Assembly: GCA_014799395.1 (NCBI GenBank)
Contig: JAAVID010000112.1
Coordinates: forward strand, 1 to 37,021
Direction: 5' to 3'
Length of the DNA stretch: 37,021 nucleotides
Origin: Oscillospiraceae bacterium
Lineage (GTDB): Bacteria > Bacillota > Clostridia > Oscillospirales > Ruminococcaceae
Under the pieces are notes generated by a model, which did no database searches, was not told the origin of the DNA, and saw only the letters and a list, made by a program, of their open reading frames with translations. Below, in pieces: positions 1,662-23,665 of the stretch; position 1 is the stretch's first letter, and each line of letters opens with the position of its first letter. Both the position numbers and the translations under genes were made by a program.

Positions 1662-1820
1662 TCAGACTGTCGATAAACCCTCGCACCGCGCCGCCGCTTT
1701 GCGGCGGCGCTTACTTCGTCAAAACTATAACGGCAGGCATAAAGCCTAGCCGTTATAGTTTTTCCTCGTCTGCGAGTGTTTCTCGACAGTCTGGGAAATG
1801 CGAGTAAAAAAATACTTTTT
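1662..1820. repeat. Structured dispersed repeat, copy 1
   Basis: This intergenic element is shared with 14730-14889. It folds into nested stems. An outer 11-bp stem joins CAGACTGTCGA (1663-1673) to TCGACAGTCTG (1783-1793). A 6-bp stem joins CTCGCA (1680-1685) to TGCGAG (1771-1776), with symmetric 6-nt internal loops. Inside are a 10-bp GC hairpin (1688-1697 with 1701-1710, loop TTT) and a 14-bp hairpin (1721-1734 with 1749-1762). The latter is extended by AGGC/GCCT around an ATAAA loop. Homology continues to ACTTTTT at 1820, just before the gtrA-like stop codon. Read on the minus strand it lies 3' of the GtrA gene and 5' of trmB. It could be a mobile palindromic element or a structured RNA; the sequence alone does not decide. 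Confidence 0.8.
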
Positions 1821-2628: not shown

Positions 2629-2684
2629 GTATTTTGAACATTTATGGGTATGTGGCGCCCGATTTATTAACGGAGGATAAAAAA

Positions 2685-3326
2685 ATGTCCGATTACATCA
2701 GAAGATTACCCGTGTACCTGCTGCTTGACTGCAGCGGCTCTATGGCAGGAGAACCTATCGAAGCCGTGAAGCAGGGCATAAAAACGCTTATCTCGGAGCT
2801 GAAGGGCGACCCCCAGGCGCTTGAGACCGCGTTTCTGTCCATTATCACGTTCGACAGCTCCGCGCGGCAGATAAGCCCCCTCACCGAGCTTATGGTGTTT
2901 AAAGAGCCGCAGATACAGGCGGGCGGCGCAACGGCTCTCGGCGGCGCTCTGAAAGTGCTCGCGGAGTGCATTACAAACGAGGTCCACACCTCCACTGCCA
3001 CTCAAAAGGGCGACTGGAAGCCGCTGGTATTCCTTATGACCGACGGCGCGCCCACGGATAACCTCGACGAAGGCATAGACGCTATACAGAAGGTCTCCAC
3101 GGGCAATATCATAGCCTGCGGCGCGGGCGCTAACGCGAACGCGAATACGCTCAAGAAAATTACCAACAACGTGCTTATGATGAACAATCTCACGGCAGGC
3201 GATATGGCACAGTTCTTCGCGTGGGTATCCAGCTCCATAAAGGCAAGCTCCAAGAGTATCGACGCCAAGCCCGGCGACCCGATAGAGCTCCCGCCGCCCC
3301 CTCAGGGCTTTGTTATCGTACCTTAA
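2685..3326 (+). CDS. terY: VWA-domain protein, TerY type
   Basis: From the ATG at 2685 the protein has 213 residues and is almost entirely one von Willebrand A domain. The metal-ion-dependent adhesion site is complete: D15-x-S17-x-S19 in DCSGSM, T83 in GGATALGG and D120 in MTDGAP. The tail IELPPPPQGFVIVP is proline-rich, as in TerY/YegL proteins. TerY-type VWA proteins act with a PP2C-type phosphatase and a kinase-like protein in Ter chemical-stress systems, probably as a metal-dependent assembly or sensing subunit in the cytoplasm; both partners are encoded next. The start is chosen because GGAGG lies 9 nt upstream and because an earlier in-frame ATG (2634) falls at the predicted transcript start. 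The next gene begins 20 nt after this stop. Confidence 0.88.
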   Translation: MSDYIRRLPVYLLLDCSGSMAGEPIEAVKQGIKTLISELKGDPQALETAFLSIITFDSSARQISPLTELMVFKEPQIQAGGATALGGALKVLAECITNEVHTSTATQKGDWKPLVFLMTDGAPTDNLDEGIDAIQKVSTGNIIACGAGANANANTLKKITNNVLMMNNLTAGDMAQFFAWVSSSIKASSKSIDAKPGDPIELPPPPQGFVIVP

Positions 3327-3345
3327 CGGTATACAGGTGAACCGA

Positions 3346-4830
3346 ATGGACAAAACCGAATTGACCACCGCCGACGATAACAGCGGGCTCAAAGCCGAAC
3401 AGCAGCTTTCGGTAACGCTCGATGATATTAAAGAAAAAACGGGAATAATGTCGGCGGAAAAGTATCTGAAAATACAAAAGTCGCTTAGCGAAAAAAGCGG
3501 CGGCACTGCCGCGCCCGAAACCGCCGAAAAGCCCGATAAGCCGGCGGAAAACGCGCCGGACACGGATAATTCACAAAGCGTGAAAAAAGGCAAAGCTTCA
3601 TCCAAAAAGCGGGAAAGCGCCCCGCTCGCGCCCGCTCCGCACCTCTCGGATATGGAGGTAATGGAGCATACGGCTTCTATCTGGCAATATAAGGAAATTA
3701 TCGACAATGGCACGGAAATGCATTCGGAATATCACGAAAAGCGCACCGTTACGCCGTTTGCCGAAATTATTGGCGCCCGCGTGCGCGGCAAAAAACACAA
3801 GCACGAGGGCACTAACTGCGACGATTATTTTGAGACCGCCGTCACCGACGATTGTGTGATCGTTATCGTGTGCGACGGCGCGGGCTCAAAGCCGCTGTCG
3901 AGGATAGGCTCGCGGGTCAGCGCGGAGAGCGCGGCGGCGTACCTCAAGACCAGGACAACGGAACTGTTCGCGAATATGCCCGCGCTCAAATCGGGTCTGG
4001 CTGCGGATCTGAGCTCGGCGGAGTTTATGGCGGCTTGCGGACGTATCGCGCCTTTGGTGCAGGAAGCGGCAAGAGAGGCGTTCGCGGCGCAGCAGAAAGC
4101 CCTCGGCGAGCTGTCCGGGGACAAGAAATACGAGGACGCGCTCGGCAGGAAGCCCGTTATCGGCGACCTTTCGACGACGTTCCTCGCGGCGGTGATCGTG
4201 CCCGTGGAGGTCGGCGGCAAGCCGCAGACCTTTATGGCGTGCGTGCAGATCGGCGACGGCTGTATCTGCGCCGTTGACAGCACCGCCGACAGCGCTCACT
4301 GTCTTAAACTCTTAGGCGAGGCGGACAGCGGCGCGTTTTCGGGAGAGACCGATTTTCTCTCCGAAAAGAACACAAAAGCCGAGGTTATCGGCGCTAAAAC
4401 GCGCATTTCGCGCGGAAACTCCGATACGGTCATGCTGATGTCGGACGGCGTGGCGGACGACTACTTCCCCGCCCTGCCGATGATGGAACGGCTGTATCTC
4501 GACCTTTGTCTGAACGGTATACTCCCTATGGGCGGCGCTCACGACGGCAATGGCGGCGAGGATCCCGCGCCTATACGGTTTCGGTCGGTGTCGCTCACTC
4601 AGCAGAGCGTGGCGCTGCAATACGCCAAGCAGCTGCTCGGCGACAAGTCCGAGGCGGCTATGTCGGCGCTCTGGGACAAGCGCGATATGCTGTGGTGCCA
4701 TTCACTGGAGGCGTTCAGAATGAATATCGGCGACACTCCCGAAGAGCGTCTGCGCGTCTGGCTGGACAATTACAACGAGCGCGGATCGTTCGACGACAGA
4801 ACGCTTACCGTTATTCGTCTTTCAAGGTGA
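3346..4830 (+). CDS. PP2C-type Ser/Thr phosphatase of the TerY triad
   Basis: This 494-residue protein has a divergent PP2C domain at about residues 135-490. Metal-binding motifs are visible in order: GTNCDDYF (155-162), VCDGAGSK (175-182), QIGDGC, LMSDGVADDYF and a final DDRTL. These are the aspartates that hold the Mn/Mg pair in PP2C_2 phosphatases. The first 135 residues are low in complexity (Pro, Ala, Lys, Glu), with no recognised fold, and may be a flexible tether. The expected role is reversing phosphorylation by the kinase encoded next. The ATG at 3346 is preceded by AGGTGA with 5-nt spacing. In-frame TTG (3310) and GTG (3337) starts are possible but lack better sites. A 274-nt gap separates this gene from the kinase gene. 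Confidence 0.85.
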   Translation: MDKTELTTADDNSGLKAEQQLSVTLDDIKEKTGIMSAEKYLKIQKSLSEKSGGTAAPETAEKPDKPAENAPDTDNSQSVKKGKASSKKRESAPLAPAPHLSDMEVMEHTASIWQYKEIIDNGTEMHSEYHEKRTVTPFAEIIGARVRGKKHKHEGTNCDDYFETAVTDDCVIVIVCDGAGSKPLSRIGSRVSAESAAAYLKTRTTELFANMPALKSGLAADLSSAEFMAACGRIAPLVQEAAREAFAAQQKALGELSGDKKYEDALGRKPVIGDLSTTFLAAVIVPVEVGGKPQTFMACVQIGDGCICAVDSTADSAHCLKLLGEADSGAFSGETDFLSEKNTKAEVIGAKTRISRGNSDTVMLMSDGVADDYFPALPMMERLYLDLCLNGILPMGGAHDGNGGEDPAPIRFRSVSLTQQSVALQYAKQLLGDKSEAAMSALWDKRDMLWCHSLEAFRMNIGDTPEERLRVWLDNYNERGSFDDRTLTVIRLSR

Positions 4831-5104
4831 TTTTTTGATACTTTTTTGAAGCAAAAAACGGGCTTGTTTTTAAACGCGAAATTTCCCGGGGATTTCCAAC
4901 GGTCGCTTATCCGATGATCCCTTTTATTAACGGATATATCGGCATTTTAAAAATCTCGGAAAACGCTCAAAAAATGAGTGGATTTTAAATCCGAAATCGG
5001 GATTTTTAACTCGGTTGTTTCGCAATTAAAAAAAGTGTTCTGAAATCGCTCAAAAATAACGTTAAAAAATGATGTTTTTATATTAACGCGGAAGGGTAAT
5101 ACTA
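4831..5104 (+). other. AT-rich 274-nt intergenic gap inside the Ter operon
   Basis: This is the only long gap in the operon. No reading frame or clear promoter was found. It contains a partial direct repeat, GAAAACGCTCAAAAA (4959-4973) and GAAATCGCTCAAAAA (5042-5056). It also has a weak hairpin around 4911-4941, where CCGAT and ATCC face GGAT and ATCGG. A TATATT sequence at 5079-5084 lacks a matching -35 box. It may hold a processing site, an internal promoter or a small RNA. Confidence 0.4.
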
Positions 5105-6589
5105 ATGAGAAGCGGCGAAGTGCTTACTGCCATACTGGAAAACGGCAGTCAAATTAAATATGTTTACGACGCAAACGCGCCGCGCGGCGGTATGAAGCAC
5201 ACGTTTTTCACACCCGATAAGCGGTTTGCGGTGCAGTTTTTCAACAATCCGCGCGACTCCGAAAATCCGCGTATGCAGGATCGTATACGCACCATTGTGG
5301 GTATCTATAACCCCACGCTCTCCGAGGCGGACGGAGGGGCGCTCGGAAACACCGAAAAGACCGCGGATTATTTCAGACAGCGGTTCTGCTGGCCTGTGGC
5401 GATCGTGAAAAGTCCACAATTCGGCATAGTCTGCCCGACCTATCCGAGCAACTTTTTCTTCGGCGATGGCGCTTCGGCGGTGCTGAATTTAAAGGGCAAG
5501 GACAAAAAATCCAACTGGTTCACGGGACGCAACCGAAAGTATCTCGAGCCCGCCGAGCGCGGCGACTTCCGCACTATGCTGAAAACCGCGATAGGGCTTT
5601 CGAGGACTGTGCGGCGTATGCACCAGGCGGGACTGGCGCACTCCGACTTGTCCTGCAACAACGTGCTTATCGACCCGAAAAGCGGCTCGGCTGTCGTAAT
5701 TGATATTGATTCGCTGGTCGTGCCGAACAAGTACGCGCCCGAGGTCGTGGGAACGCGCGGCTATATCGCGCCCGAAGTCTTGGCGACGCTGGAGCTCGAC
5801 TACAACGACAGCCGGCGCGCTCTGCCGTGTGTGCAGACCGATCTTCACGCGCTTCCCGTGCTTATCTACGAATACCTGTTTTTCCGTCACCCGCTTATCG
5901 GGCCTAAGATATACAGCGCCAAAAGCGCGGAGGAGGACGATTTTCTGGCGCTCGGCGAAAAGGCGACGTTTATTGAAAATCCGGACGACCGCTCAAACCG
6001 TCCGCCCGATCTCAACGTCACGATACAATCGCTTTCAAAGGGCTTGGAGAAGCTGTTTCTGAGGGCATTTGTGGACGGTCTGCACAATCCCTCCGAGCGT
6101 CCTACCGCTATGGAATGGGAGACCGAGCTTTTAAAGGCTTGGGACAGACTTGTTCCCTGCGCTAACCCGAGCTGCGAGAAAAAGTGGTTCATACTCCGCG
6201 ACGAGCGCACGCCCGTTTGTCCGTTCTGCGGAACGCGCGCCGCGGGGAAGATAATCCGTCTCGGCTTCAAGAGCGAAATGCGCGGCAAGAAAGGCGTTTA
6301 CCGCGGCAAGAGCGAGGTGATCGTCTACGACAAAATGCCGCTGTTCGACTGGCACGTTTTCTCAAACGTTCACAATGATGAAAAAGCCGACCCGTCGATG
6401 CGCGCGTATATCGCGTATTACAACGGAATGTGGCTGCTCGTCAACAACGGTATCGAGGGTATGACGTCGCCGTCGGGCAGGCTCGTGCCGAAAGGGAGCG
6501 CCGTGGAGCTGAAGGACATGGCGATGTTCAGAATGAGCAACAAGGAGAACGGGCTGCTCTGCGAAACGATGATAATCGGCAATAGTTGA
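5105..6589 (+). CDS. Protein kinase-like protein with zinc ribbon and FHA-like tail
   Basis: This 494-residue protein has a divergent eukaryotic-type kinase domain at about residues 15-350. The catalytic loop is HSDLSCNNVL (H179, D181, N186), the DFG position reads D200-I-D202, and GTRGYIAPEV (216-225) carries the APE motif. The usual VAIK lysine seems to be Gln44 in FAVQFF, so ATP anchoring may differ or activity may be weak. Next comes a zinc ribbon, CANPSC then CPFC. The C-terminal 100 residues (MWLLVNNG..., LVPKGSAVELKD) resemble an FHA-type beta sandwich, a phosphothreonine reader; this last call is tentative. With the VWA and PP2C genes it completes the TerY triad. The ATG follows AAGGG by about 9 nt. 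Confidence 0.8.
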   Translation: MRSGEVLTAILENGSQIKYVYDANAPRGGMKHTFFTPDKRFAVQFFNNPRDSENPRMQDRIRTIVGIYNPTLSEADGGALGNTEKTADYFRQRFCWPVAIVKSPQFGIVCPTYPSNFFFGDGASAVLNLKGKDKKSNWFTGRNRKYLEPAERGDFRTMLKTAIGLSRTVRRMHQAGLAHSDLSCNNVLIDPKSGSAVVIDIDSLVVPNKYAPEVVGTRGYIAPEVLATLELDYNDSRRALPCVQTDLHALPVLIYEYLFFRHPLIGPKIYSAKSAEEDDFLALGEKATFIENPDDRSNRPPDLNVTIQSLSKGLEKLFLRAFVDGLHNPSERPTAMEWETELLKAWDRLVPCANPSCEKKWFILRDERTPVCPFCGTRAAGKIIRLGFKSEMRGKKGVYRGKSEVIVYDKMPLFDWHVFSNVHNDEKADPSMRAYIAYYNGMWLLVNNGIEGMTSPSGRLVPKGSAVELKDMAMFRMSNKENGLLCETMIIGNS

Positions 6590-6640
6590 GAATTATGCCA
6601 AATACGGCATATAACTTTAGTGAAAGAAAGGAAACGATAA

Positions 6641-9364
6641 ATGAAAAAATTCGGTCTGACAGACAAAGAAGTTGCCGAAAGCAAGGCAAAATACGGCGAC
6701 AACTCAATGACGGAGCAGGCTCACGAGAGCTTCTGGGATAAGCTGAAGGGCAATCTCGGAGACCCGATGATAAAGATACTGATCGTGGCGCTCCTCATAA
6801 ACGTCGTGCTCTCCGTGCTCGGCTATGCGGGAGTTATCAAGGAGGGTGCGCCCGAGTGGTTTGAGCCGCTGGGAATTTTCGTGGCTATCTGCTTAGCAAC
6901 TTTAGTGTCGACTTTCTCCGAGTACCGCAACGAGAACGCGTTCCAGAAGCTCCAGGAAGAGGCTTCGCGCATTATGGTAAAAACCTACCGCAACGGCGTT
7001 ATCGCCGAGGTCGCTATCAACGACATAGTTGTCGGCGACGCTATCCTGCTCCAGTCGGGCGATAAGATCCCCGCGGACGGCATTATCATCGACGGCGACA
7101 TCAAGGTCGACCAGTCGGTGCTGAACGGCGAGAGCCGCGAGGCTAAAAAGCGCGCCGTTCCCGAGGGCTGGACGGATACCGACGAAAACACCGATTTCGA
7201 CAGCGAATACAAGGTCTACCGCGGCGCTGTCGTATGCTCGGGCAACGCTACTATGCAGGTCACCGTTGTCGGCGACAAGTCGGTCTACGGTAAGATCGCG
7301 AGCGAGCTCCAGACGGACGACGACCGCGAAACTCCTCTGAAAGTCAAGCTCGGCAAGCTCGCGGACGGTATTTCCAAATTCGGATATATCGGCGGTATCG
7401 CGATAGCAATTGCAATGCTGTTCAAGACAATAGTTATGTACACGGGCGGCCCCGCGGCTTTCTGGGCGGACAACGGCATTTTCGGGCTTATTGAGGCGGT
7501 AATTCAGGCTGTTATGCTGGCGGTAATTATTATCGTTATGGCTGTTCCCGAGGGTCTGCCGCTTATGATAGCGATAGTTTCCGCGCAGAATATGGGCAAA
7601 ATGCTGAAAGACAACGTATTGGTGCGCAAGGTCGCGGGTATCGAGACCGCGGGCTCGCTGAACATCCTGTTCTCCGATAAAACGGGTACTATAACCAAGG
7701 GCAAGCTCGAGGCTATCAATTTTATTGACGGCGCTGTAAACGAATACAAGACCTTTGACGACATCGGCGGAAAGCTCGGCGACCTGCTGTCATTGTCCAT
7801 TCACAAGAACACATTGTCTATGATCTCGGGCGAGGGCAAGGACAAGCGCGTGCTCGGAGGAAACGCGACGGAACGCGCTATCCTCGGCTACGCGATGAAC
7901 ACCGAATGCAAGGCGGTCGTAAAGGCGGTCGGCAACATTCCGTTCAACTCCACAAACAAATACTCCGCGACGCAGGTAGAGGGCGAATACGACCTCTCGC
8001 TCATCAAGGGCGCGCCCGAGAAGATACTTCAGCGCTGCTCGCACTACTACGACAAGGACGGCAAAAAGCAGCCGTTTGATATGGCACAGCTCAACGCGAA
8101 GATAGACGAGCTCGCAAACCGCGCTATCCGCGTTCTGGCGGTGGCTACGTCCGAGGACGCTCTTGGCGAGGAATCGCTTCCCGCGGGCAACAACTGGACG
8201 CTTGTGGGCTGTCTGGGAATACGCGACGAAGTACGTCCCGAATCCGTTACCGCTATCAAGGAGGTCAAGGGCGCGGGCGTTCAGGTCGTTATGATAACGG
8301 GCGACAGAAAAGAGACCGCGGTCGCTATCGCGAAAGAGGCGGGGCTTATCGACTCCGACAGCAACCTTATGCTCACCTCCGACGAGCTTGCGAAGATGTC
8401 CGACGACGAGATAAAGTCGAAGATAAAGGATATACGAGTTATCGCGCGCGCGCTGCCTACCGACAAGAGCCGTCTGGTTCGTCTCGCGCAGGAGCTTGAC
8501 CTCGTAGCCGGAATGACGGGCGACGGCGTAAACGACTCCCCCGCGCTCAAGAAAGCCGACGTCGGCTTCGCAATGGGCGGCGGAACGGAGGTCGCAAAGG
8601 AAGCCTCCGACATCGTTATCCTCGACGACAACTTCAACTCTATCGACCGCGCGATTTTGTACGGGCGCACGATCTTTAACTCGATACGCAAGTTTATCGT
8701 GTTCCAGCTTACCATCAACGTGGCGGCGGTCCTGGTCTCGTTTGTCTGCCCGCTTATCGGCATTGCGAACCCGCTGTCCGTTATTCAGATACTCTGGGTG
8801 AACCTCGTAATGGATACCTTGGCGGCTCTGGCGTTCGGCGGCGAGCCCGCTCTCGAGCGCTTTATGCACGAAATGCCCAAGCGCAGAAACGAGCCGATCA
8901 TCAGCAAGTATATGATGTCGGAGATCATCGTCGGCGCGGGCTGGACGTTTATACTGTCGATCGTAATGCTGATACTCGGTTCGTTCCCGAGCGGCAATCC
9001 GACGAGCTTCCTCGAACAGTGGGGGCTTCTGCGCGATGATGTCGCTGCGGGCTTTGACGAGCAGCACGCTATACTGCACACGGCGTACTTCGCGTTCTTC
9101 ATCTTCATTGCGGTGTTCAACGCGTTCAACGCGCGTACCGACCGTATGAACCTGTTTGACAATCTGGGCAAGAACAAGGGCTTTTTGACGGTATTCGGTA
9201 TTATAGCGATAGTTCAGATACTGATGACGTATCTCGGCAGAGGTATTCTCTCGGGCTGGGGACTTACTCTCACGGAATGGCTGGTAGTTCTTATCCCGGC
9301 TATCTCGATAATCCCGATAGACCTGATAAGAAAAGCAATAGCAGGCTCTTCGGCGAAAAATTAA
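6641..9364 (+). CDS. P2B-type Ca2+-transporting ATPase
   Basis: This 907-residue P-type ATPase should pump Ca2+ out of the cytoplasm at the cost of ATP. All catalytic parts are present: the actuator motif NGES (162-165), PEGLP in helix 4 (303-307), the phosphorylation site DKTGT with D346, and the hinge TGDGVND (626-632). Helix 6 reads LWVNLVMDTLAALAFGGEP, close to plasma-membrane (PMCA-like) calcium pumps. About ten membrane helices are expected. Length is normal for the family and no calmodulin-like tail is seen. An AAGGAAA site lies 8-9 nt before the ATG. The gene is in series between the kinase and terD genes, where many Ter clusters carry a TerC-type membrane protein, so it is probably the ion-transport part of the stress system. 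Confidence 0.93.
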   Translation: MKKFGLTDKEVAESKAKYGDNSMTEQAHESFWDKLKGNLGDPMIKILIVALLINVVLSVLGYAGVIKEGAPEWFEPLGIFVAICLATLVSTFSEYRNENAFQKLQEEASRIMVKTYRNGVIAEVAINDIVVGDAILLQSGDKIPADGIIIDGDIKVDQSVLNGESREAKKRAVPEGWTDTDENTDFDSEYKVYRGAVVCSGNATMQVTVVGDKSVYGKIASELQTDDDRETPLKVKLGKLADGISKFGYIGGIAIAIAMLFKTIVMYTGGPAAFWADNGIFGLIEAVIQAVMLAVIIIVMAVPEGLPLMIAIVSAQNMGKMLKDNVLVRKVAGIETAGSLNILFSDKTGTITKGKLEAINFIDGAVNEYKTFDDIGGKLGDLLSLSIHKNTLSMISGEGKDKRVLGGNATERAILGYAMNTECKAVVKAVGNIPFNSTNKYSATQVEGEYDLSLIKGAPEKILQRCSHYYDKDGKKQPFDMAQLNAKIDELANRAIRVLAVATSEDALGEESLPAGNNWTLVGCLGIRDEVRPESVTAIKEVKGAGVQVVMITGDRKETAVAIAKEAGLIDSDSNLMLTSDELAKMSDDEIKSKIKDIRVIARALPTDKSRLVRLAQELDLVAGMTGDGVNDSPALKKADVGFAMGGGTEVAKEASDIVILDDNFNSIDRAILYGRTIFNSIRKFIVFQLTINVAAVLVSFVCPLIGIANPLSVIQILWVNLVMDTLAALAFGGEPALERFMHEMPKRRNEPIISKYMMSEIIVGAGWTFILSIVMLILGSFPSGNPTSFLEQWGLLRDDVAAGFDEQHAILHTAYFAFFIFIAVFNAFNARTDRMNLFDNLGKNKGFLTVFGIIAIVQILMTYLGRGILSGWGLTLTEWLVVLIPAISIIPIDLIRKAIAGSSAKN

Positions 9365-9380
9365 CGTAAATTAAGCATGA

Positions 9381-9403
9381 GGATAACGGGATTTCCGTTA
9401 TCC
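9381..9403 (+). promoter_or_regulatory. Hairpin in the leader of terD
   Basis: A perfect 9-bp stem, GGATAACGG / CCGTTATCC, with a GATTT loop lies between the calcium ATPase gene and terD. It ends 17 nt before the GGAGG of terD. No run of T follows, so it is unlikely to be a plain terminator. It may be an mRNA processing or stabilising hairpin that raises terD output relative to the pump gene. Confidence 0.5.
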
Positions 9404-9433
9404 CGTGCGCCTAACAATAAGGAGGAAATAATT

Positions 9434-10018
9434 ATGGCAGTAAATCTTTCTAAGGGTCAGCGCGTAAGCCTTGACAAATCGGTAACTATGGCAAGGATCG
9501 GTCTGGGCTGGGACACCAACCGCTACGACGGCGGTCAGGACTTCGACCTGGACGCGTGCGTGTTCCTGCTGGGCGCTAACGGCAAGGTGCTCACGGACGA
9601 CGACTTTGTATTCTATAACAACCTTTCGGCGAGAAACGGCGCTGTCGTACACACCGGCGACAACAGAACGGGCGAGGGCGACGGCGACGACGAGGCGATC
9701 ATCATCGATTTCGCCAAGGTTCCCGCGGAGGTCGAAAAGATCGCGGTCACGGTAACGATTTTCGACGCGGAGCAGAAGCGCCAGAACTTCGGTCAGGTAT
9801 CCAACTCCTATGTACGAGTGCTCAAGATCGATACTCCCGACGACGTTGGCGGCGAAGAGGTTCTGCGTTTCGACCTCGTTGAGGAATTCTCCATTGAGAC
9901 GGCGCTTGTGGTATGCGAGATCTACCGCTACAACGGCGACTGGAAGTTCAACGCGGTAGCGGCGGGCTATCAGGGCGGTCTGGAAGCGCTTTGCAAGGCT
10001 TACGGCGTAAATGTCTGA
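9434..10018 (+). CDS. terD: TerD-family calcium-binding stress protein
   Basis: This is a 194-residue TerD domain protein of normal length. It starts MAVNLSKGQRVSL and carries the acidic calcium-binding segments DFDLDA (36-41) and GDNRTGEGDGDDE (75-87), followed by FNAVAAGYQGGLEALC near the end. TerD proteins are soluble beta-sandwich proteins that bind Ca2+ and are needed for tellurite and general stress tolerance. Their biochemical output is still unclear. The ATG at 9434 has an ideal GGAGG 8 nt upstream; in-frame codons further upstream lie in the hairpin leader and are rejected. A calcium pump gene directly before it and a second TerD-domain gene directly after it suggest joint action. 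Confidence 0.95.
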   Translation: MAVNLSKGQRVSLDKSVTMARIGLGWDTNRYDGGQDFDLDACVFLLGANGKVLTDDDFVFYNNLSARNGAVVHTGDNRTGEGDGDDEAIIIDFAKVPAEVEKIAVTVTIFDAEQKRQNFGQVSNSYVRVLKIDTPDDVGGEEVLRFDLVEEFSIETALVVCEIYRYNGDWKFNAVAAGYQGGLEALCKAYGVNV

Positions 10019-10063
10019 CAACGTATAAATTAAGGAATTTTAAAGCGAAAGGGGGCGGGGCTT

Positions 10064-11287
10064 GTGGATATTAAGCAGATGATAGCTCAAGCGGCGGCGG
10101 GGTCGTCGGTTGCTTTGCCGTCGGGCGAGTTCGAGGGACCGCTGATAATAAGCAAGCCCCTGCGCCTTATCGGTAAAAATACTACGATCTGGGCGAAAAG
10201 ATCGCCCGTTATCGAGATAAACTCAAACGGCGTTTCTATCGAGAATATCCGCGCTGAGCTCACCGAGGGAAGCATTAACGACGTCGCGGTCGCGGCGAAC
10301 GTGCTTGCCGCGGCAAAGGATATTGAGGTCCTCGGAGGAGTTCGCGGATTCGGCGCTGAGGACGGCTTTTTTGACGTTCCGCGCGCTATCGAGCTGGGCG
10401 AATTCGAGGCGGACAGCGTGAATACGTTTACGCTCGCCGTCAACGTTCCCGACAAGACCGAGATAGTGTGCGGCATCGGCGAGGTTTCTTTTTCTCCGAG
10501 CGTTCTTACGGCGGGGAGAAACGAGCTGACTGTGACCGTTTCGGGAATTTCGGCGCAGACCTATCTGTACGCGGAGGTGCTGTTTAAAAGCAAATTCACG
10601 CGGAGGATATACCTTACGGGCAGACCTAAAACAGACGTTCCCAAAGCGGAGAACAAGCGGATTTACACCGCTCCAGAGCGTGATTTTTCGCGCGCGGCGC
10701 TCCCCGAGCCGATAGGCACAACGGACGTTATCTCAATGACGAGAACGCCCGATACGTCGCTTCCGTCGTTGGAGATGAAGCGCGGTCAGCGCGTATCGTT
10801 GTCACAATACATAGGGAGCCGATTTGAGATTTTTTTCACCTGCGAGAAGCCGCAAGGATATGAGATCGACCCGTATGTATTCCTGCTCGGCGAAAACGAG
10901 CAGTCGTTCGGGGATTCGGGGCTGGTGTTCTTCGGGAACGAGCGCTCCGAAAACGGCGAGGCGGTCTACTTCCCCGCCGACGGTCACGTTGAGATCGACC
11001 TGGCGAAGGTCGATTTCAGAGTGCGGAAGATAGCCTTGGCGTACTCGATATACGCGGGCGATACGCGGAAAAATTTCTCGTCGGTAAGAGTGCCGCGCGT
11101 GTCGATAAGAGCGGGCGGAGAGCGCGTTTCGTTCGTTATGGAGGGGCTTGCGGCGGAGGCTACCGTCGTCGCTATGGAATTTTATCTGTACAAGGGCGAG
11201 TGGAAGATCTCCGCTGTCGGCGCGGGCTATAAGGACGGTATGGCTAAGCTGTGCAATCGGTACGGTATCGATGTCGTGGACGAATAA
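10064..11287 (+). CDS. Beta-rich N-terminal region fused to a degenerate TerD domain
   Basis: This 407-residue protein is of unusual build. Residues 15-95 read like a short right-handed beta-helix (ALPSGEFEGPLIISKPLRLI, then VIEINSNGVSIENI). Residues 110-190 look like a beta-sandwich module. Residues 239-405 form a TerD domain, starting MKRGQRVSLSQ and ending AVGAGYKDGMAKLCNRYGI. The TerD part keeps the fold but has lost the long acidic calcium loop: the segment matching GDNRTGEGDGDDE in the upstream TerD is only NERSENGE, and DFDLDA is EIDPYV. It therefore probably binds calcium poorly and may bind a partner or the canonical TerD. The start is GTG with AGGGGG about 9 nt upstream. It lies 45 nt after terD and 18 nt before the yceG-like gene. 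Confidence 0.75.
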   Translation: MDIKQMIAQAAAGSSVALPSGEFEGPLIISKPLRLIGKNTTIWAKRSPVIEINSNGVSIENIRAELTEGSINDVAVAANVLAAAKDIEVLGGVRGFGAEDGFFDVPRAIELGEFEADSVNTFTLAVNVPDKTEIVCGIGEVSFSPSVLTAGRNELTVTVSGISAQTYLYAEVLFKSKFTRRIYLTGRPKTDVPKAENKRIYTAPERDFSRAALPEPIGTTDVISMTRTPDTSLPSLEMKRGQRVSLSQYIGSRFEIFFTCEKPQGYEIDPYVFLLGENEQSFGDSGLVFFGNERSENGEAVYFPADGHVEIDLAKVDFRVRKIALAYSIYAGDTRKNFSSVRVPRVSIRAGGERVSFVMEGLAAEATVVAMEFYLYKGEWKISAVGAGYKDGMAKLCNRYGIDVVDE

Positions 11288-11305
11288 TTCGGGAGGTAAC
11301 GGGCT

Positions 11306-13474
11306 TTGGAGTTTACGAGATATGTCGGATATGACAACGCCGACGGTTTTCGGGGATTCTTAATTGAACAGTTTGTCGCGGCACAGCAAAACGGGCTGTT
11401 CTTTAAGGAGAAGCTGCCGCTTGCCGCTACCGATGAAATATCGGCTGCGGCTGAATATACCGCTTCGAGCTTTGAGAACGCGGAGGATATTAAGCGCGGA
11501 CTGGATATGTTTCTGCATAAGGCGAATATCCCCTGCGACAGCGCAAGGCTCGCCGAGATAATGGCGGGCGCGGTGGCGGAGTGCGGCGCTAACAAGAAGA
11601 ATACTTATTTCGTGGTGCTGTGCTGGCTGATAAAGTATCTCGGCACACGACCGAGTACCGTGCTGTATATAGGCTCGGCGACGCTGCGCGAGCTGTATTT
11701 TCTGTATATGCTCGCGGTGACGGGCGTTAAGGTGGTGCTCGTGAGCTATGGGCTGGACGCGGATTTCAATAAGTTCCCGTACAAGGACAAGGTAACGGTA
11801 AAGGGAGGGCAGAATACCTCCCCGATACAGATCGATTTCGGGAAGATAGACCTCTCAAAGGAGGCTAAGCTCGCCGAAATGCGCACCGAGGGAGAACGCG
11901 TGAGCGGTCTTGTAAAGCGGCTCGACACGTCGGCGGCGGGGATCTTCGAGGATATACTCAAGGACAGAAAATCGCGCGTTGTCGGAAACGGCGGCGTGTT
12001 CACCGAGGACGGCGAGATACCCGTATACTCGGCGGCGCTGATAGGCTTTGACGAGGAGACCGTGTACACGAATATGCTCGTCAAGTTCAAGGAGAGCTTC
12101 GCGGGGCTGAAAAAACAGCTCATCTTTATCGAGAAACCGCTTGAAAATCCCAACGCCGAGGAAGTCCGCGCGCTCGGGAGCGTTCCCCGGACAAGCACCT
12201 CGGAAATGATAGACGCGCTCGCTATGCAGATAACGCTCAGCGGCGACGCTACAAGAACGGCGCTCGCGAGGAAAACGCTTGTCGAGCTGCTGAACGAGCT
12301 GAACACGGGCAATCAGACGGTGGTGTTAAATTACGGCAACAAGCTGATAACTTGGCTGTACCGCTGCACTCAGGCGCGGAAGTACGCCGTGCGGTACGAG
12401 GATATTCCGGTGATACTGTACTACGGCGATATTTCGCAGTCGGAGATGTATTTCCTTAACTTTATGTCGCGGTGCGGCTTTGATACCGTGTACATCTCGC
12501 CGAACAAGAATAACTCGGCGCTCGTTATCGACAAGAATATCGGCGGCAGAATGCAGGTCTTTGAGCTTCCTCAAAGCAAGGAGAGCGGAGGTTATCCGAA
12601 CAAGGCGGTCAAAATGAAGGTCGCGACCGTGGCGTATTCCGCCGAGCGCGATCTCGATACTATGCTGTACGGCGGCGATACGGGAATTTATCGGAGCTTC
12701 CAGTTCCCGAACAGCCAGTCGGTCACGCTGAAGACCACGTTCGAGGAAATAGGGATACTGTGGAAGCAGGAGGCGCGGTTCAGAACGGGCTTTGCCACGG
12801 CGGGAAATCTGGTCTCCGTGCCGAATATCTTCGCGAAGATAAGCGGCGTTGAGGACGGAAATCTGGGCAATTACTGGGAGGACGTGCGGCAGAAGCTCAC
12901 TCCGGATACTTTCCTTATCGTCAAGGAGAAGAATCCCGAAAACGAGCCCGTGGAGGACTTGTCCGTTTATCGGCAGTTCTACCGCAACGGACAGTATGAC
13001 TTTGAGAAGTTCAAAGCAAGCACGCTGAATAAATTCAGCTACCTGCCGGACAGGGTACAGGATATGCTGTTCTATAAGCTCCAGGAGGTCGTTTCGAGCG
13101 GATTTCTGAAGCTGGAGGGCGACGAGCTGATGTGCGGCGTGCTGAATCACGGCATGAACCTTACCAAAAAATTTACGCAGATGATACAGCGTTTCGACTT
13201 CACACGGACTATCCCGAAGCTGATATACATCGACGCGATCGAAGATACGTTCTTATTGTGGGAATGCATACATCTTGTGCTGTGCAATCTGATAGGCTTT
13301 GACATACTCATATATACTCCGACGGGCTATAAGAACCTCGAGACCTACGTTTCGACGGACGCGTTTGAAGAGCATATAATGAACCAATTTTTATATGACG
13401 TGGAGGTTCCGAAGTTTAAAATACCCTCCGAGGAAAAGAACGGTTTTTTCGGAAAGCTGTTCGGAAAACACTAG
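11306..13474 (+). CDS. YceG-type protein of Ter operons
   Basis: This 722-residue soluble protein resembles B. subtilis YceG, the 'biosynthetic module' component found beside TerD and TelA genes. Two similar motifs stand out: NTYFVVLCWLIKYL...TVLYIGSATLRELYFLYML in the first half, and IPVILYYGDISQSEMYFLNFM then GFDTVYISPNKNNSA near residues 370-400. They suggest a repeated Rossmann-like unit. The protein is longer than the roughly 540 residues I recall for YceG; the added length seems to lie in the N-terminal part. Its chemistry is not established in the family. The start is TTG at 11306, supported by GGGAGGT 8-9 nt upstream. The next gene, telA, follows after 48 nt, the same order as yceG-yceH in B. 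subtilis. Confidence 0.78.
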   Translation: MEFTRYVGYDNADGFRGFLIEQFVAAQQNGLFFKEKLPLAATDEISAAAEYTASSFENAEDIKRGLDMFLHKANIPCDSARLAEIMAGAVAECGANKKNTYFVVLCWLIKYLGTRPSTVLYIGSATLRELYFLYMLAVTGVKVVLVSYGLDADFNKFPYKDKVTVKGGQNTSPIQIDFGKIDLSKEAKLAEMRTEGERVSGLVKRLDTSAAGIFEDILKDRKSRVVGNGGVFTEDGEIPVYSAALIGFDEETVYTNMLVKFKESFAGLKKQLIFIEKPLENPNAEEVRALGSVPRTSTSEMIDALAMQITLSGDATRTALARKTLVELLNELNTGNQTVVLNYGNKLITWLYRCTQARKYAVRYEDIPVILYYGDISQSEMYFLNFMSRCGFDTVYISPNKNNSALVIDKNIGGRMQVFELPQSKESGGYPNKAVKMKVATVAYSAERDLDTMLYGGDTGIYRSFQFPNSQSVTLKTTFEEIGILWKQEARFRTGFATAGNLVSVPNIFAKISGVEDGNLGNYWEDVRQKLTPDTFLIVKEKNPENEPVEDLSVYRQFYRNGQYDFEKFKASTLNKFSYLPDRVQDMLFYKLQEVVSSGFLKLEGDELMCGVLNHGMNLTKKFTQMIQRFDFTRTIPKLIYIDAIEDTFLLWECIHLVLCNLIGFDILIYTPTGYKNLETYVSTDAFEEHIMNQFLYDVEVPKFKIPSEEKNGFFGKLFGKH

Positions 13475-13522
13475 GGCATATCGCCCCCGACCGCGGCATT
13501 TGCCGCAAGAAAGGACTAAAAA

Positions 13523-14698
13523 ATGGGATTACAATTCACACCCGGAGCGGCTCAGCAGGCAAGCCCCGAGATCGACACTACGGCTACTACCGTCACTACG
13601 GCTTCGCCCGCGGTTACACCCGCTATTCTCGACGCTAAGATCGAGGAGGCAAAGAACTTCAACATCGTTGTAAAAACGGACGAGATCAAGCAGCAGCTCG
13701 CTACGAGCAAGGAGATAGATCAGCTCGTTTCCACCATTAACGTAAACGACAGCTCGACTATCGTAAAGTTCGGCGCGGAGGCTGCAGACCAGATCTCCCA
13801 GGCTTCCGACCAGGTGCTCAATTCTATGAGCATCGAGCAGATCAACGACACGGGCGTTATGCTGAAAAACCTCGCGGCTATCATGGATCAGTTCGACATC
13901 AAGGAGCTTGAGGAAGAGAAGCCGGGACTTTTCGGCAATCTCAAGAAAAAGCTCGACAAGATACTCAACAAGTACGATACAATGGGCAAGGAGATCGACA
14001 AGATATACGTTCAGCTCAAGCAGTACGAGGTCGAGATAGAACAGGCGAACAACAAGCTCGGCAGTATGTACGAGGCTAATCTCGGATATTATCAGCAGCT
14101 CGTAAAGTATATTATGGCGGGCGAGCAGGGCGTAAAAGAGCTTGACCAGTTTATCGACGAGTACAAGGCAAAGGTTGAGGCAAACCCCGACGACGGCACT
14201 ATCCGTATGGACTTATCAAATCTTCAGCAGATGCGCGAGATACTCGATCAGCGCGTAATGGACCTGAAGATCGCCGAGAACGTCGCTTTGCAGACCGTTC
14301 CCATGCTGAAAACGATGGAGTACTCCAACCTCAATCTCGTGCGCAAGATAAACTCCGCGTTTATAATCACTATGCCCGTGTTCAAGCAGTCGCTCGCGCA
14401 GGCTATTATGCTGAAAAGGCAGAAGATACAGGCGGACTCTCTCGCGGCTCTCGACGAAAAGACCAACGAACTGCTCCTCAAGAACGCGCAGAATACCGTC
14501 AACCAGTCCAAGGCGGTGGCGGCAATGTCGGCGAACTCATCCATTAAGGTCGAGACCCTCCAGCAGACATGGCAGACTATCGTCACCGGTATCGACGAGG
14601 TTCAGCAGATACAGGATCAGGCCCGCGAAAAGCGCAAGCAGGACGCTGTCGCGTTAGAGCAGATAAAGTCCGACTACAAAAAGCGAATGAAAGCATAA
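13523..14698 (+). CDS. telA: TelA/YceH-family toxic anion resistance protein
   Basis: This 391-residue, mostly helical and charged protein matches the TelA (toxic anion resistance) family. It has a Thr/Ala-rich N-terminal 40 residues, then long amphipathic helices such as LFGNLKKKLDKILNKYDTMG and EVEIEQANNKLGSMYEANLG. The family core ETLQQTWQTIVTGIDEVQQI is near residues 350-370. No membrane segment or signal peptide is seen. TelA proteins accompany TerD and YceG in resistance to tellurite, cell-wall stress and antibiotics; the mechanism is unresolved. AAGGA lies 8 nt before the ATG. A small GCGGC/GCCGC hairpin (13493-13506) precedes the ribosome site. This is the last gene of the operon, and a strong hairpin follows 7 nt after the stop. 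Confidence 0.92.
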   Translation: MGLQFTPGAAQQASPEIDTTATTVTTASPAVTPAILDAKIEEAKNFNIVVKTDEIKQQLATSKEIDQLVSTINVNDSSTIVKFGAEAADQISQASDQVLNSMSIEQINDTGVMLKNLAAIMDQFDIKELEEEKPGLFGNLKKKLDKILNKYDTMGKEIDKIYVQLKQYEVEIEQANNKLGSMYEANLGYYQQLVKYIMAGEQGVKELDQFIDEYKAKVEANPDDGTIRMDLSNLQQMREILDQRVMDLKIAENVALQTVPMLKTMEYSNLNLVRKINSAFIITMPVFKQSLAQAIMLKRQKIQADSLAALDEKTNELLLKNAQNTVNQSKAVAAMSANSSIKVETLQQTWQTIVTGIDEVQQIQDQAREKRKQDAVALEQIKSDYKKRMKA

Positions 14699-14704
14699 TA
14701 TTAA

Positions 14705-14730
14705 ACGCTCCACGGAAATCCGCGGAGCGT
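14705..14730 (+). terminator. Hairpin ending the Ter operon
   Basis: An 11-position stem with one mismatch joins ACGCTCCACGG to CCGCGGAGCGT with an AAAT loop, 7 nt after the telA stop. No U-tract follows. Instead the second structured repeat begins at once, so termination may depend on the combined structure. Confidence 0.6.
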
Positions 14731-14889
14731 CAGACTGTCGATAAACCCTCGCACCGCGCCGCCGCAAAGCGGCGGCGCTTACTTCGTCACAAAGCCCACA
14801 CGGCAGGCACAAAGCCTTGCCGTGCGGGCTTTTCCTCGTCTGCGAGTGTTTCTCGCCAGTCTGGGAAATGCTAGTAAAAAATACTTTTT
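14730..14889. repeat. Structured dispersed repeat, copy 2
   Basis: This is the second copy of the element at 1662-1820. The outer stem is CAGACTGTCGA (14731-14741) with TCGCCAGTCTG (14853-14863; one mismatch). The CTCGCA/TGCGAG stem is unchanged (14748-14753 and 14842-14847 region). The GC hairpin (14756-14778) has an AAA loop in place of TTT. The 14-bp hairpin (14791-14804 with 14819-14832) differs from copy 1 at several pairs, and four of these changes are compensated on the other arm. Homology ends at 14889, inside the stop codon of the aminopeptidase gene. It sits between convergent genes, directly 3' of a minus-strand gene, the same side as in copy 1. Confidence 0.8.
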
Positions 14890-20722: not shown

Positions 20723-21430
20723 TTAATTTTTCCTTTTCTCGGCGGCGTTATTTCTCGTTATCCAATCACGCACGATATTCAGCAGTTCTCCGACTCTTTC
20801 CTGCTCGAACAGCCCGTACAGCTTGGCCGGCTCGAAAAATATCTGCTGTATCTCGGGATATTGCAGAAGATTTTGTACCTCGCGAATATTCCGTATACGC
20901 TCGTCCCGTAATATATAAGGGTTCGCGAGTATACGCGAGATGACGGGGTCGGGGCTTTGCAGGATATTCGACGGCAAAACGGGGGCGGGAAGCGGAACTT
21001 TCGCGCCGTCCTTCGGGGTCGCCGCCTTGGAGATAACCGCCATCACCACCGAAATAACGACGACCGCGCCGATACCTCCGGCTATCAGCGCTAAACCGAG
21101 GTTCATGATCGGTCTGCCGCCGTTTTCGTGATCATAAAGCCCGTACATCACGACCCCAACGCTCAGAAACGCCGTACAGCCCGCGGCGAGCTCGGCATAG
21201 CTTAGCGCGCGCATTGTCCTTTGGTACGGATCGCCGCGCGTCGGGTATATCTTGTGTATGCCGATTATCATCGAGACGGGAATGCCCGCGAACATACCGC
21301 CCAGGAAAAGCGCCACTCCCCCGAGCGCGAGCGCTTTTATCTCCTTGACCATTCCCCAGATCAAGACGACCATTCCCGCCACTGCGATACCGGTCGTTAT
21401 TTTCGTGGGGAGCGGTGTTTTTTTCTTCAT
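20723..21430 (-). CDS. Membrane protein of unknown function, paralog B
   Basis: I do not recognise a named family. From the ATG at 21430 (GAGG 7 nt upstream; a TTG at 21442 is possible) the protein has 235 residues. Four hydrophobic helices fill the first 140 residues, in pairs separated by a polar loop (HKIYPTRGDPYQRTMRALSY). A Pro-rich linker (PLPAPVLPSN) leads to a C-terminal domain of about 75 residues starting SPDPVISRILANPY and ending DWITRNNA. This domain is nearly identical to that of the upstream gene, while the membrane halves have diverged. The C-terminal part is predicted helical and cytoplasmic. It is co-transcribed with comM and malQ. Confidence 0.75.
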   Translation of the reverse strand: MKKKTPLPTKITTGIAVAGMVVLIWGMVKEIKALALGGVALFLGGMFAGIPVSMIIGIHKIYPTRGDPYQRTMRALSYAELAAGCTAFLSVGVVMYGLYDHENGGRPIMNLGLALIAGGIGAVVVISVVMAVISKAATPKDGAKVPLPAPVLPSNILQSPDPVISRILANPYILRDERIRNIREVQNLLQYPEIQQIFFEPAKLYGLFEQERVGELLNIVRDWITRNNAAEKRKN

Positions 21431-21438
21431 AAATTGCC

Positions 21439-22128
21439 TCAACCTCCGAATATATCATCGGCGTTATTCTGCGTTATCCAATCGCGCGCTATATTCAGCA
21501 GTTCTCCGACCTTTTCCTGCTCGAACAGCTCGTACAGCTTTGCCGGCTCGAAAAATATCTGCTGTATCTCGGGATATTGAAGCAGGCGCTGAACCTCGCG
21601 AAGCTGCCGTATGCGCTCGTCCCGCAATACATAAGGGTTCGCGAGTATGCGCGAGATAACGGGGTCGGGGCTGTACGGCATATTTGCGCTCTGCGGCACG
21701 GGGTTTGAAGCCGCCTGCGGCGGCAAATCCCTTGACGCGGTCTTGTACATTGACGACCCCGCAAGCAGCATAACGACCCCGACAATCAGCAGCGCCGGCC
21801 CGATATATGAAAACGCCTGAGTGCCGCCGTTTTCAATGCAAAGGTTGATAAAAAACATCACAATGCCCGCCGCCAACGCCACCGCCGACGACAATTTAAG
21901 ATACTGCGCCGAACGCGCCTTATTTTGCGGCGGGTCGTCCAAGGGAAACCGCGCTTTCACTTTCTTGAACGACGTGATGATCGAGGGCGTGATTATCCCA
22001 ACAAACGCGACCGCAAACCCCAGAATAATGACAACCATATTTTCCAGCGCAAACCCGACCGCGAAAACTGCCATCGCGGCAAGCGCGGCTATCAGCGTGA
22101 GCTTTGACAAAAACGGAATTTTCTTCAT
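21439..22128 (-). CDS. Membrane protein of unknown function, paralog A
   Basis: No named family is recognised. The start is set at the ATG at 22128, with GAGGGG 7 nt upstream. A longer form from 22164 would overlap comM and lacks such a site. The protein has 229 residues, with four hydrophobic helices in two pairs, a charged loop (FKKVKARFPLDDPPQNKAR) and a Pro/Gln-rich linker. The C-terminal domain opens SPDPVISRILANPYVLRDE and includes QYPEIQQIFFEPAKLYELF. This domain is shared almost residue for residue with paralog B. The next gene starts 8 nt after its stop. The layout looks like a duplication in which only the C-terminal part has been kept constant. Confidence 0.75.
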   Translation of the reverse strand: MKKIPFLSKLTLIAALAAMAVFAVGFALENMVVIILGFAVAFVGIITPSIITSFKKVKARFPLDDPPQNKARSAQYLKLSSAVALAAGIVMFFINLCIENGGTQAFSYIGPALLIVGVVMLLAGSSMYKTASRDLPPQAASNPVPQSANMPYSPDPVISRILANPYVLRDERIRQLREVQRLLQYPEIQQIFFEPAKLYELFEQEKVGELLNIARDWITQNNADDIFGG

Positions 22129-22138
22129 AGACGACCCC

Positions 22139-23665
22139 TCATCTGTTCCAGTATTTGCGGTCAAGGCTGCGGAACGCTATCGCCTGCGAAATGTGCGTTT
22201 TTTGAATATCCGCGCTTCCGTCGAGGTCGGCGCACGTCCGCGAGACCTTCAATATCCTGTCGTACGCCCTCGCGGAAAGACCCAGCTTCTCAAACGCCGC
22301 TTTCAGCATATCCTGCGCTTCGGGAGTGAGCCTGCACACCTCTCCGATAATGTCCGAGGTTATGCGGCTGTTCGACTTTATCCCCGTGCCCTTGTAGCGC
22401 TCCGCCTGAATATCGCGCGCCCTCTGAACGCGCTCCGCTATCGCCGACGAGGGCTCGGCGGGCTTGCGCTCCGCAAGCTCGTCGTATTTCACGGGCTTTA
22501 TCTCTATCTGAATATCTATCCTGTCGAGAACGGGCTGAGATATTTTGTTGAGATACGCCGAGACCATTTTCTCGGAGCAGGTGCATTTCTTCATGGGATT
22601 GCCGAAGTTGCCGCACGGACACGGGTTCATCGCCGCGACCAGCATAACGTCGCACGGGTAGTTCACCGAGCCGCTCGCGCGGGAGATGGTGATGTCGCCG
22701 TTCTCAAGCGGCTGGCGGAGCGTTTCGAGAACGCGCCTGTCAAATTCGGGGAGCTCGTCCAGAAACAGCACGCCGTTGTGCGCAAGCGATATTTCACCGG
22801 GCTTCGGCACGCTTCCGCCGCCGACAAGCCCCACGGAGCTCGCCGTATGGCTCACGGCGCGGAACGGACGCGCGGTCACAAGCGGCTCGCAGGGGTTGAT
22901 TATCCCCGCGACCGAGTGTATCTGCGTGGTCTCTATGCTTTCCTCGAACGTTATCCTCGGCAGTATCGACGGTATTCTCTTGGCGAGCATCGACTTTCCC
23001 GACCCGGGAGGACCCAGCATAAGTATGTTGTGCGAGCCCGCGGCGGCGGTCTCGATAGCCTTTTTGGCGGCATACTGACCCATAACGTCGGCAAAGTCCT
23101 CAAAATAGCGGTACTTGCGCTCGGGCGGTATGTAGCGCGGTTCGGGAGAAAGACCCGTGCCGTGCCGCAAAAACTCGGTTATCTGCGAGATGTGCTCCGC
23201 GCCGTAGACCTCCACGCCGTCCGCCACGGAAGCCTCTCTCGCGTTGTCAACGGGCAGGAATACGCGCTTTATCCCGTTCTGCGCGGCAGTGAGCACCATA
23301 CTCAGCGCGCCGTTTACGGGAGCGAGCGCGCCGTCAAGCGACAGCTCGCCGATAAACGCCGTGTCGGGAAGCTCGCTCGTTATTATCCCGCCGAGCCGCA
23401 TAAGCGCTATCATTATCGGCAGATCGAACATCGAGCCTATCTTCTTCACGCTTGCGGGCGCGAGGTTTACCGTGACCCTGCCGCCGAGGAGCTTCAGCCC
23501 GAGATGTCCGAGGACCGCGCGAATGCGCGCCTTACTCTCCTGCACGGCTATATCGGGCATTCCGACAATATCAAAGGACGGCTGTCCCGTCGAAATGCTT
23601 GCCTCGACCGTCACGGGAAAGGCGTTCAGTCCGAACAAGCCGACGCTTTCTACTTTACTGAACAT
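22139..23665 (-). CDS. comM: ComM/YifB family AAA+ ATPase
   Basis: ComM-type proteins are hexameric AAA+ helicases that promote branch migration during natural transformation; outside transformable bacteria their role is less clear. The 508-residue protein has the N-terminal Lon-like domain (FSKVESVGLFGLNAFPVTVE), Walker A GPPGSGKS (218-225), Walker B GVLFLDELPEF (about 298-308), and the Cys cluster CPCG...CTC typical of the family. It also has the C-terminal Mg-chelatase-like domain ending ISQAIAFRSLDRKYW. The ATG follows GGGAGGAT by 7-8 nt, behind a consensus-like promoter. It heads the minus-strand run down to the aminopeptidase gene. Confidence 0.95.
   Translation of the reverse strand: MFSKVESVGLFGLNAFPVTVEASISTGQPSFDIVGMPDIAVQESKARIRAVLGHLGLKLLGGRVTVNLAPASVKKIGSMFDLPIMIALMRLGGIITSELPDTAFIGELSLDGALAPVNGALSMVLTAAQNGIKRVFLPVDNAREASVADGVEVYGAEHISQITEFLRHGTGLSPEPRYIPPERKYRYFEDFADVMGQYAAKKAIETAAAGSHNILMLGPPGSGKSMLAKRIPSILPRITFEESIETTQIHSVAGIINPCEPLVTARPFRAVSHTASSVGLVGGGSVPKPGEISLAHNGVLFLDELPEFDRRVLETLRQPLENGDITISRASGSVNYPCDVMLVAAMNPCPCGNFGNPMKKCTCSEKMVSAYLNKISQPVLDRIDIQIEIKPVKYDELAERKPAEPSSAIAERVQRARDIQAERYKGTGIKSNSRITSDIIGEVCRLTPEAQDMLKAAFEKLGLSARAYDRILKVSRTCADLDGSADIQKTHISQAIAFRSLDRKYWNR

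Follow-up and report, generated by a model that had tools for sequence, protein, structure and literature searches.

Introduction

MITEs are usually viewed as dead ends that are defined by their tips. Several described systems come close to the repeat analysed here, which lies twice in the window, that is, in the whole stretch of 37,021 nucleotides under analysis. IS1272 of Staphylococcus, a member of the IS1182 family, takes palindromes as targets and replaces the target stem-loop without duplication, according to the accessible part of the report by Wan et al. (PMC5678879). The element in the window resembles this family in its ends, which are like those of insertion sequences (ISs) of the same genus, and in its palindromic targets. 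It differs from IS1272, as described in that part of the report, in that the hairpin is duplicated instead of replaced and in that the element carries no gene. The hairpin duplications fit the alternative transposition scheme drawn for IS1272 in the same text (PMC5678879).

The BOX repeats of Streptococcus pneumoniae are modular and MITE-like, with variable inner modules, a scattered distribution and a predicted RNA fold, as given in the excerpt of PMC3049150. Modularity, dispersal and predicted fold are common to both elements. BOX belongs to another bacterial group, was compared by description and not by sequence, and in that excerpt has neither hairpin-terminator duplication nor an order-wide core of conserved loops. 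MRSC-65-2 is similarly a structured motif with dozens of copies per genome, undecided between RNA and DNA, but in the section of its description available (PMC11109978) it has a UYCCGG repeat that our consensus lacks. REPs measure 20–40 bp, and the accessible pages of PMC3733652 list CGTC REPs for five other phyla and leave Firmicutes unmentioned. As in the GTAG and CGTC REPs of those pages, the element is palindromic and multi-copy with unpaired conserved letters at the foot of a hairpin, and its plus strand reads CGTCA before hairpin B. Its size and architecture (an outer stem, two loops and, in the genus, IS-type ends) rule out membership of the CGTC REPs as described there.

A microbiome screen gives 250 palindromic candidates in the portion of PMC8040213 at hand, and the motif may be an unnamed entry in such published candidate lists. 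A search of part of the open-licence literature listed no title on this repeat family. A search of the window and 14 loci against Rfam 15 at gathering and relaxed thresholds gave no match to element or core; the best score on the element is 19.4 bits (E 0.73), and an S10-Clostridia match in L365 falls outside the core. We regard the element as a variation on known themes: a MITE whose folded core is conserved across the order and whose insertion duplicates hairpins.

Results

Sequence and fold of the two window copies

The first-pass annotation had proposed a repeat at 1662–1820 whose two copies form the same nested fold with compensatory changes in one hairpin. These boundaries are nearly right; we place the element at 1663–1829. 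Reading both copies base for base bears out the four compensated pairs: 1724–1759 goes from A-T in copy 1 to G-C in copy 2, 1726–1757 from T-A to C-G, and both 1727–1756 and 1729–1754 from A-T to C-G. The single pair said to have become A-C is there as well (1728–1755, T-A in copy 1 and A·C in copy 2). Copy 1 is far more stable than its shuffles on both strands, with –83.9 kcal/mol (z –10.6) on the plus strand and –85.2 kcal/mol (z –11.0) on the minus strand, and 0 of 200 shuffles is as good in either case. The features of the two copies are as follows.

1652–1662, no strand: left target-site duplication ATTACTGTTTT (flank comparison)
1663–1829, plus: mobile element copy 1, a MITE of 167 bp (repeat boundary and duplication)
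1663–1678, plus: left terminal inverted repeat CAGACTGTCGATAAAC, IS1182-like (compared with IS ends in L104 and L105)
1663–1685, plus: outer stem, left arm (inverted-repeat and folding analysis, copy alignment)
1688–1710, plus: GC-rich optional hairpin A (arms 1688–1697 and 1701–1710)
1708–1774, minus: core-model hit in copy 1 (R2, 35.0 bits over model positions 10–74)
1721–1762, plus: hairpin B, site of the compensatory changes (arms 1721–1738 and 1744–1762, loop 1739–1743)
1771–1793, plus: outer stem, right arm (inverted-repeat and folding analysis, copy alignment)
1815–1829, minus: right terminal inverted repeat CAGCTGTAGAAAAAG, one base short
1831–1841, no strand: right target-site duplication ATTACTGTTTT (flank comparison)
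14705–14730, no strand: hairpin adjoining copy 2 on the left, after the TelA gene at 13523–14698 (by eye)
14731–14863, plus: mobile element copy 2, folded part
14776–14844, minus: core-model hit in copy 2 (R2, 25.7 bits)

The element starts with CAGACTG and ends with CTACA(A)GCTG. In other copies the right terminal inverted repeat is CAGCTTGTAGAAAAAG, of which copy 1 has one base fewer. Hairpin A is missing in a short variant of the element. The tail of copy 2 reaches to about 14889 and its right end is eroded; flank comparison found no target-site duplication there. The hairpin at 14705–14730, read by eye, may be the former terminator of the TelA gene; it is absent from the results of the terminator scan, and no T-run follows it now.

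Copies in the genome and the genus

Having further copies was a point on which the first-pass annotation had staked its reading, and there are many. BLAST of the own genome (2.76 Mb in 112 contigs) gives 21 rows, which are 18 places and three self-matching palindromes. Fifteen of the 18 places are near full length and three are partial; two of the partial places (C46 and C3a) belong to the short variant. BLAST finds matches in 27 of 43 genomes of the genus, while the covariance-model search of relatives that had been suggested as a check finds matches to model R1 in 41 of the 43, with up to 79 in a single genome under strict filters and bounded scoring. An exact 22-base piece also occurs in Oscillospiraceae and Clostridia MAGs and in one Ruminiclostridium MAG. 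The element is thus short, non-coding, dispersed and multi-copy, as a MITE is. Hairpins A and B combine variously, as in L006 and L021, which have B in common and not A. In one copy (L051, 383–492) the tip of hairpin B is deleted and a short near-perfect palindrome remains. A plasmid search gave no match to the repeat; among phages, the window copy matched only MT835999.1, over 29 bases confined to the left end, and one other-genus copy matched none.

Empty sites and duplicated hairpins

The neighbours of copy 1 are a GtrA-domain gene on one side and a TrmB-type (Methyltransf_4) gene on the other, each on the minus strand. Comparison at this site shows it empty in the relatives G029 and G028, where the trmB–gtrA gap is 31 and 30 bp, respectively, compared with 212–213 in the window. 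The 11-bp direct repeat ATTACTGTTTT that flanks copy 1 is not a hairpin. For 178 elements the left flank was compared with the sequence beyond the right end, with re-paired flanks as the null. The duplication score is at least 9 in 25 elements (0.4 expected) and at least 20 in 14 (0.0 expected); the other 153 are without clear duplication in this test. The 14 top-scoring duplications are 21–29 bp long and appear by eye to be hairpins, usually whole ones, with a perfect stem of at least 6 bp in 11 of the 14; in 12 the hairpin is followed by a T-run or preceded by an A-run. These hairpins are terminator-like and may be working terminators. The empty sites and flanking duplications, together with the IS1182-like ends, make the repeat a mobile element, a point that the first-pass annotation had not raised.

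Relation to IS1182

The ends of an IS1182-family element in L104, CAGCCTGTCGAAAAAG and CAGTCTGTCGAAAAAC, resemble the element ends CAGACTGTCGATAAAC and CAGCTTGTAGAAAAAG without being identical to them, and IS1182-family elements of sister species carry 16-bp ends like those of the element. Two IS1182 elements are themselves flanked by duplicated hairpins, of 21 bp (L104) and 34 bp (L106); against the NCBIfam IS1182 model NF033551 (cut-off 270), the transposases of the two reach 325.4 and 379.1 bits, respectively. A third protein exceeds this cut-off (L103, 277.7 bits), and no element-like ends were found at its locus. Because the ends are alike, an IS1182-type transposase most likely moves the element in trans.

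The IS1182 protein search has matches, many of them weak, in 12 of 43 genus genomes, and an intact transposase of 477 aa is present in one of the 43 (G033). The own genome (97.75% complete) has 0 IS1182 transposase matches, so we can only infer mobilisation in trans; perhaps the mobilising IS has since been lost or is missing from the assembly. A search with PF13751, chosen as a guess at the partner, finds IS1182 relatives as well as IS5-like genes. The latter were set aside as partners, and the one PF13751 fragment in the own genome (C30) was rejected, its best score being to IS5 and below the cut-off. An R2 search of the IS loci found no core inside the IS elements, and the single match near an IS (L298, 21–104) is a separate adjoining element (G033:C55:4133–4237).

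Covariation in the hairpin and the outer stem

Four alignments were scored for changes on both sides of a pair. Alignment A2 is gap-free and holds those 21 of 60 elements that measure exactly 131 nt, other lengths being excluded; its loci came from BLAST or an exact pattern and were located by fuzzy match to the outer arms, a step that favours regular outer arms and is blind to hairpins A and B. Standard pairs fill 98.3% of its pair cells on the minus strand, and 18 of 49 pairs show double-sided change. There are 85 double-changed cells compared with 21.6 in shuffles, a number reached by 0 of 500, and slid controls give 3–9; a weaker measure that counts further pair types gives 40 against 34.4 and is reached by 8 of 500 shuffles. 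In A3, with 11 copies of the short variant after exclusion of one wrongly oriented row, 95.8% of cells are paired and 20 of 37 pairs show double-sided change.

The pattern extends beyond the genus. Alignment A7 was made by sequence only from sequences found with R1, and consists of 24 sequences, seven of this genus and 17 of seven other genera, with L337, L320 and five near-duplicates excluded. It is 90.6% paired, with double-sided change in 26 of 28 pairs and 176 double-changed cells against 55.8 in shuffles. Alignment A8 fits 40 matches to model R2, drawn from 39 loci of as many genomes under six family labels, and is 93.3% paired, with double-sided change in 25 of 28 pairs and 372 double-changed cells against 119.3; two weaker measures are reached by 1 and 31 of 500 shuffles. 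The covariation score lies above all 500 shuffles in each of A2, A3, A7 and A8, with shuffle controls that ignore phylogeny. Pairing is thus kept among genus copies (A2, A3), and other genera keep both pairing and loop letters despite unrelated stem sequences. Selection on the folded single strand, as had been proposed from the two window copies, is well supported.

A core across the order

The core letters are AGG/ACG in the internal loop, GCA/AA in the second loop and UU..U at the tip. We take a kink-turn or a loop-E motif as a possible reading of the internal loop. In the family, R1 matches 14 of 247 genomes, 10 of them from other genera, and the other-genus matches inspected have unrelated stem sequence and identical loops. 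One R1 match (L337 in G076) has no loops and was discarded as a probable false hit. Model R2, built from A7, reaches 75 of 244 genomes and 45 of 126 genera in the family, and 100 of 394 genomes, 53 of 168 genera and 16 family labels in the order, where three of the positive genomes come from this genus. Its top score, 89.1 bits, corresponds to an E of 1.7e-20 within a single genome. A small control, 50 kb of E. coli, gave no match up to E 10. The own genome also has R2 matches of another type (G000:C15, C43, C64 and C104).

The best-conserved columns of A8 are in the loops. The stems differ completely among the 40 matches from six families, nine unpaired columns are invariant, and conservation averages 0.80 in unpaired and 0.59 in paired columns when mostly-gap columns are excluded. 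In A7 the mismatches adjacent to the loop are G·A in 17 of 24 sequences and A·G in 17 of 24, with both together in 14 of 24; among the three pairs adjoining these mismatches the middle one is double-changed in 8 of 24. Within the genus, the loop-letter pattern alone gives 330 matches against four for the reversed pattern, and 43 of 60 matches sampled pass the outer-stem test.

Larger palindromes with other ends, for example AAGAAAACAAAG..CTTTGTTTTCTT, enclose the core in several other genera. With such different ends, IS1182 cannot account for the core everywhere. Six large ORFs that overlap other-genus cores contain no transposase, and no autonomous version was found among them. In L329–L332 the outermost flanks of other-genus copies are partly complementary but vary from one copy to the next, which would fit insertion in hairpin loops.

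Strand of the folded molecule

The choice between RNA and a DNA hairpin had been left open by the first-pass annotation, and both readings stand. An orientation-neutral sample was drawn from genus elements found by loop letters only, with chance matches and truncated or broken copies excluded. On the plus strand, outer-stem mismatches are A·C in 53 cases and G·T in 16 (43 of 60 elements, three columns excluded). The lean towards A·C is seen in 13 of 15 genomes, with one opposite and one tied (p 0.0018), and hairpin B mismatches lean in the same direction, 19 to 7 (27 of 60 elements). Since A·C on the plus strand is G·U on the minus strand, the minus strand looks like the folded strand. In a family sample of 18 elements, three of this genus (18 of 43 rows; the other 25 were set aside on visual inspection as chance matches or a near-duplicate), the minus orientation has 13 A·C and 5 G·U, an excess of A·C that comes mostly from one conserved C·A column. 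The 60-element set from which A2 was taken has 63 A·C against 27 G·T and mixes conserved columns, which makes it no strand test. Counts on covariance-model matches (56 to 17 in A7, 64 to 22 in A8) were set aside because covariance models favour G-U. The mismatches therefore favour minus-strand RNA within the genus and do not do so in the sample taken mostly outside it. We regard RNA of the minus strand as the likelier candidate for the folded molecule.

Genomic context

Neighbouring genes were called by codon usage with a caller that recovers 28 of 29 of its own training genes. In the resulting table of 60 rows, which includes three misbounded or misoriented entries (L084 minus, L102 minus and L078, also within the 60-element set), 18 elements are in convergent contexts, 17 have plus-strand genes on both sides, 10 have minus-strand genes on both sides and 10 are in divergent contexts; for the other five the caller gives a gene on just one side. 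Orientation is not clearly biased in the co-directional contexts (17 compared with 10), and the left neighbours of elements are mostly gene 3′ ends. Mechanical calling of the ORFs that flank 39 loci across the order gave 71, which contain 89 Pfam families, the commonest domain occurring in at most 3 of the 71 among the 25 of 89 families listed. The lack of a common neighbour domain points to dispersal rather than to a regulator of one gene type.

Other features of the window

A second palindromic repeat occupies 208–387, with arms at 208–228 and 367–387 that are 90% complementary and with ends GGCAATACCGCACAAT; it has a weak core-model match at 252–330 on the plus strand (22.2 bits, E 9e-4). 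An end sequence like that of this repeat flanks a core copy in L343, and 24610–24627 resembles its end (GACAACGCCGCACAATTA). The gene run at 2634–14698 reads like a tellurium-resistance or stress cluster, in which the TelA gene at 13523–14698 is confirmed and the others are presumably genes for a vWA protein, a phosphatase, a kinase, a Ca-ATPase-like protein and a TerD-like protein. On the minus strand at 20723–22164 are two adjacent, similar membrane-protein genes with closely alike C-termini, apparently a tandem duplication.

Discussion

Our preferred reading, to which we give a probability of about 0.8, is that the repeat is a non-autonomous MITE with IS1182-like ends that often targets terminator-like hairpins and carries a structurally selected core, most likely folded as minus-strand RNA. 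An IS1182-type transposase would act in trans on the element ends, often placing the element at a terminator-like hairpin. Joining there would be staggered between the two feet of the hairpin and would copy the whole hairpin to both sides, and with the whole hairpin duplicated both flanking genes could keep a terminator. Within the ends lies the core, consisting of the outer stem, the conserved internal loop and hairpin B with its second small loop and conserved tip. Natural selection maintains the structure of this core throughout the order, and its minus-strand RNA would be bound by a putative partner. A wider form of this proposal, which we regard as speculative and on balance unlikely, is that an order-wide class of structured RNA (Oscillospirales, by named relatives) sits inside several unrelated MITE families and that a dedicated protein, bound to this RNA, aids the movement of the elements or shields the host.

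The nature of the folded strand is where an alternative has most to offer. The fold could act as a single-stranded DNA hairpin, similar to REPs or IS200/IS605 ends, that is read by a transposase or another DNA-processing enzyme; we hold this to be possible, if rather less probable than RNA. Mobile repeats with structured single-stranded DNA ends exist (PMC6006769, in the part available), a strand preference is equally expected for single-stranded DNA, and the mixed orientation relative to genes and a commonest Pfam domain that appears only three times among 71 flanking ORFs agree with it. However, the searches made, none of which went by name, brought up no HUH/Y1 transposase or other partner, and the minus-strand internal loops are purine-rich and conserved. 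They carry two adjacent G·A-type mismatches together in 14 of 24 sequences, and such adjacent mismatches are usual in RNA, not exclusive to it. A cis-acting RNA regulator, such as a riboswitch-like leader, an attenuator or a terminator that is repeated by chance, would explain why four copies (C56, C5, C3b and C95) lie, by eye, between an apparent promoter and a start codon, and why left neighbours are mostly gene 3′ ends. It would have to accommodate up to 79 copies per genome, both orientations, empty sites in two relatives and 89 Pfam families in 71 flanking ORFs with no more than 3 ORFs each among the families listed, and we consider it improbable.

Two further alternatives deny a role to the core. 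Template switching and gene conversion make the arms of an inverted repeat change together and could give covariation with no selection at all; hairpin arms do seem replaceable as units, and hairpin B of L051, its tip deleted, is left as a short near-perfect palindrome. Yet repair does not predict the strand-biased mismatches inside the genus, the best-conserved columns of A8 are unpaired loop letters under six family labels, and A and B combine differently in copies such as L006 and L021, which makes this account very improbable. The core might also be the leftover inner palindrome of an ordinary IS1182 MITE, with order-wide matches that are chance or convergent. Ends and duplications alone do explain mobility, and R2 gives the window copies only 35.0 and 25.7 bits, but the same model reaches 89.1 bits and 53 of 168 genera with no match in 50 kb of E. 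coli, and loop letters alone recover the core in the genus (330 against 4 reversed). This last account we find hardly credible; the hairpin is not just MITE debris.

On our preferred reading of a mobile repeat with a selected core, evolution has kept the inside of the element, its loops and fold, under rewritten stems and between different ends. If the wider proposal is true, these would be RNA-assisted mobile repeats whose ends are exchanged while the core is retained. The hairpin duplications offer natural examples of stem-loop-duplicating transposition, for IS1272 no more than a drawn alternative in the accessible text, and hint at a way for a repeat to spread into terminators without breaking them. 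The purpose of structured cores in bacterial repeats thereby becomes testable in a living group.
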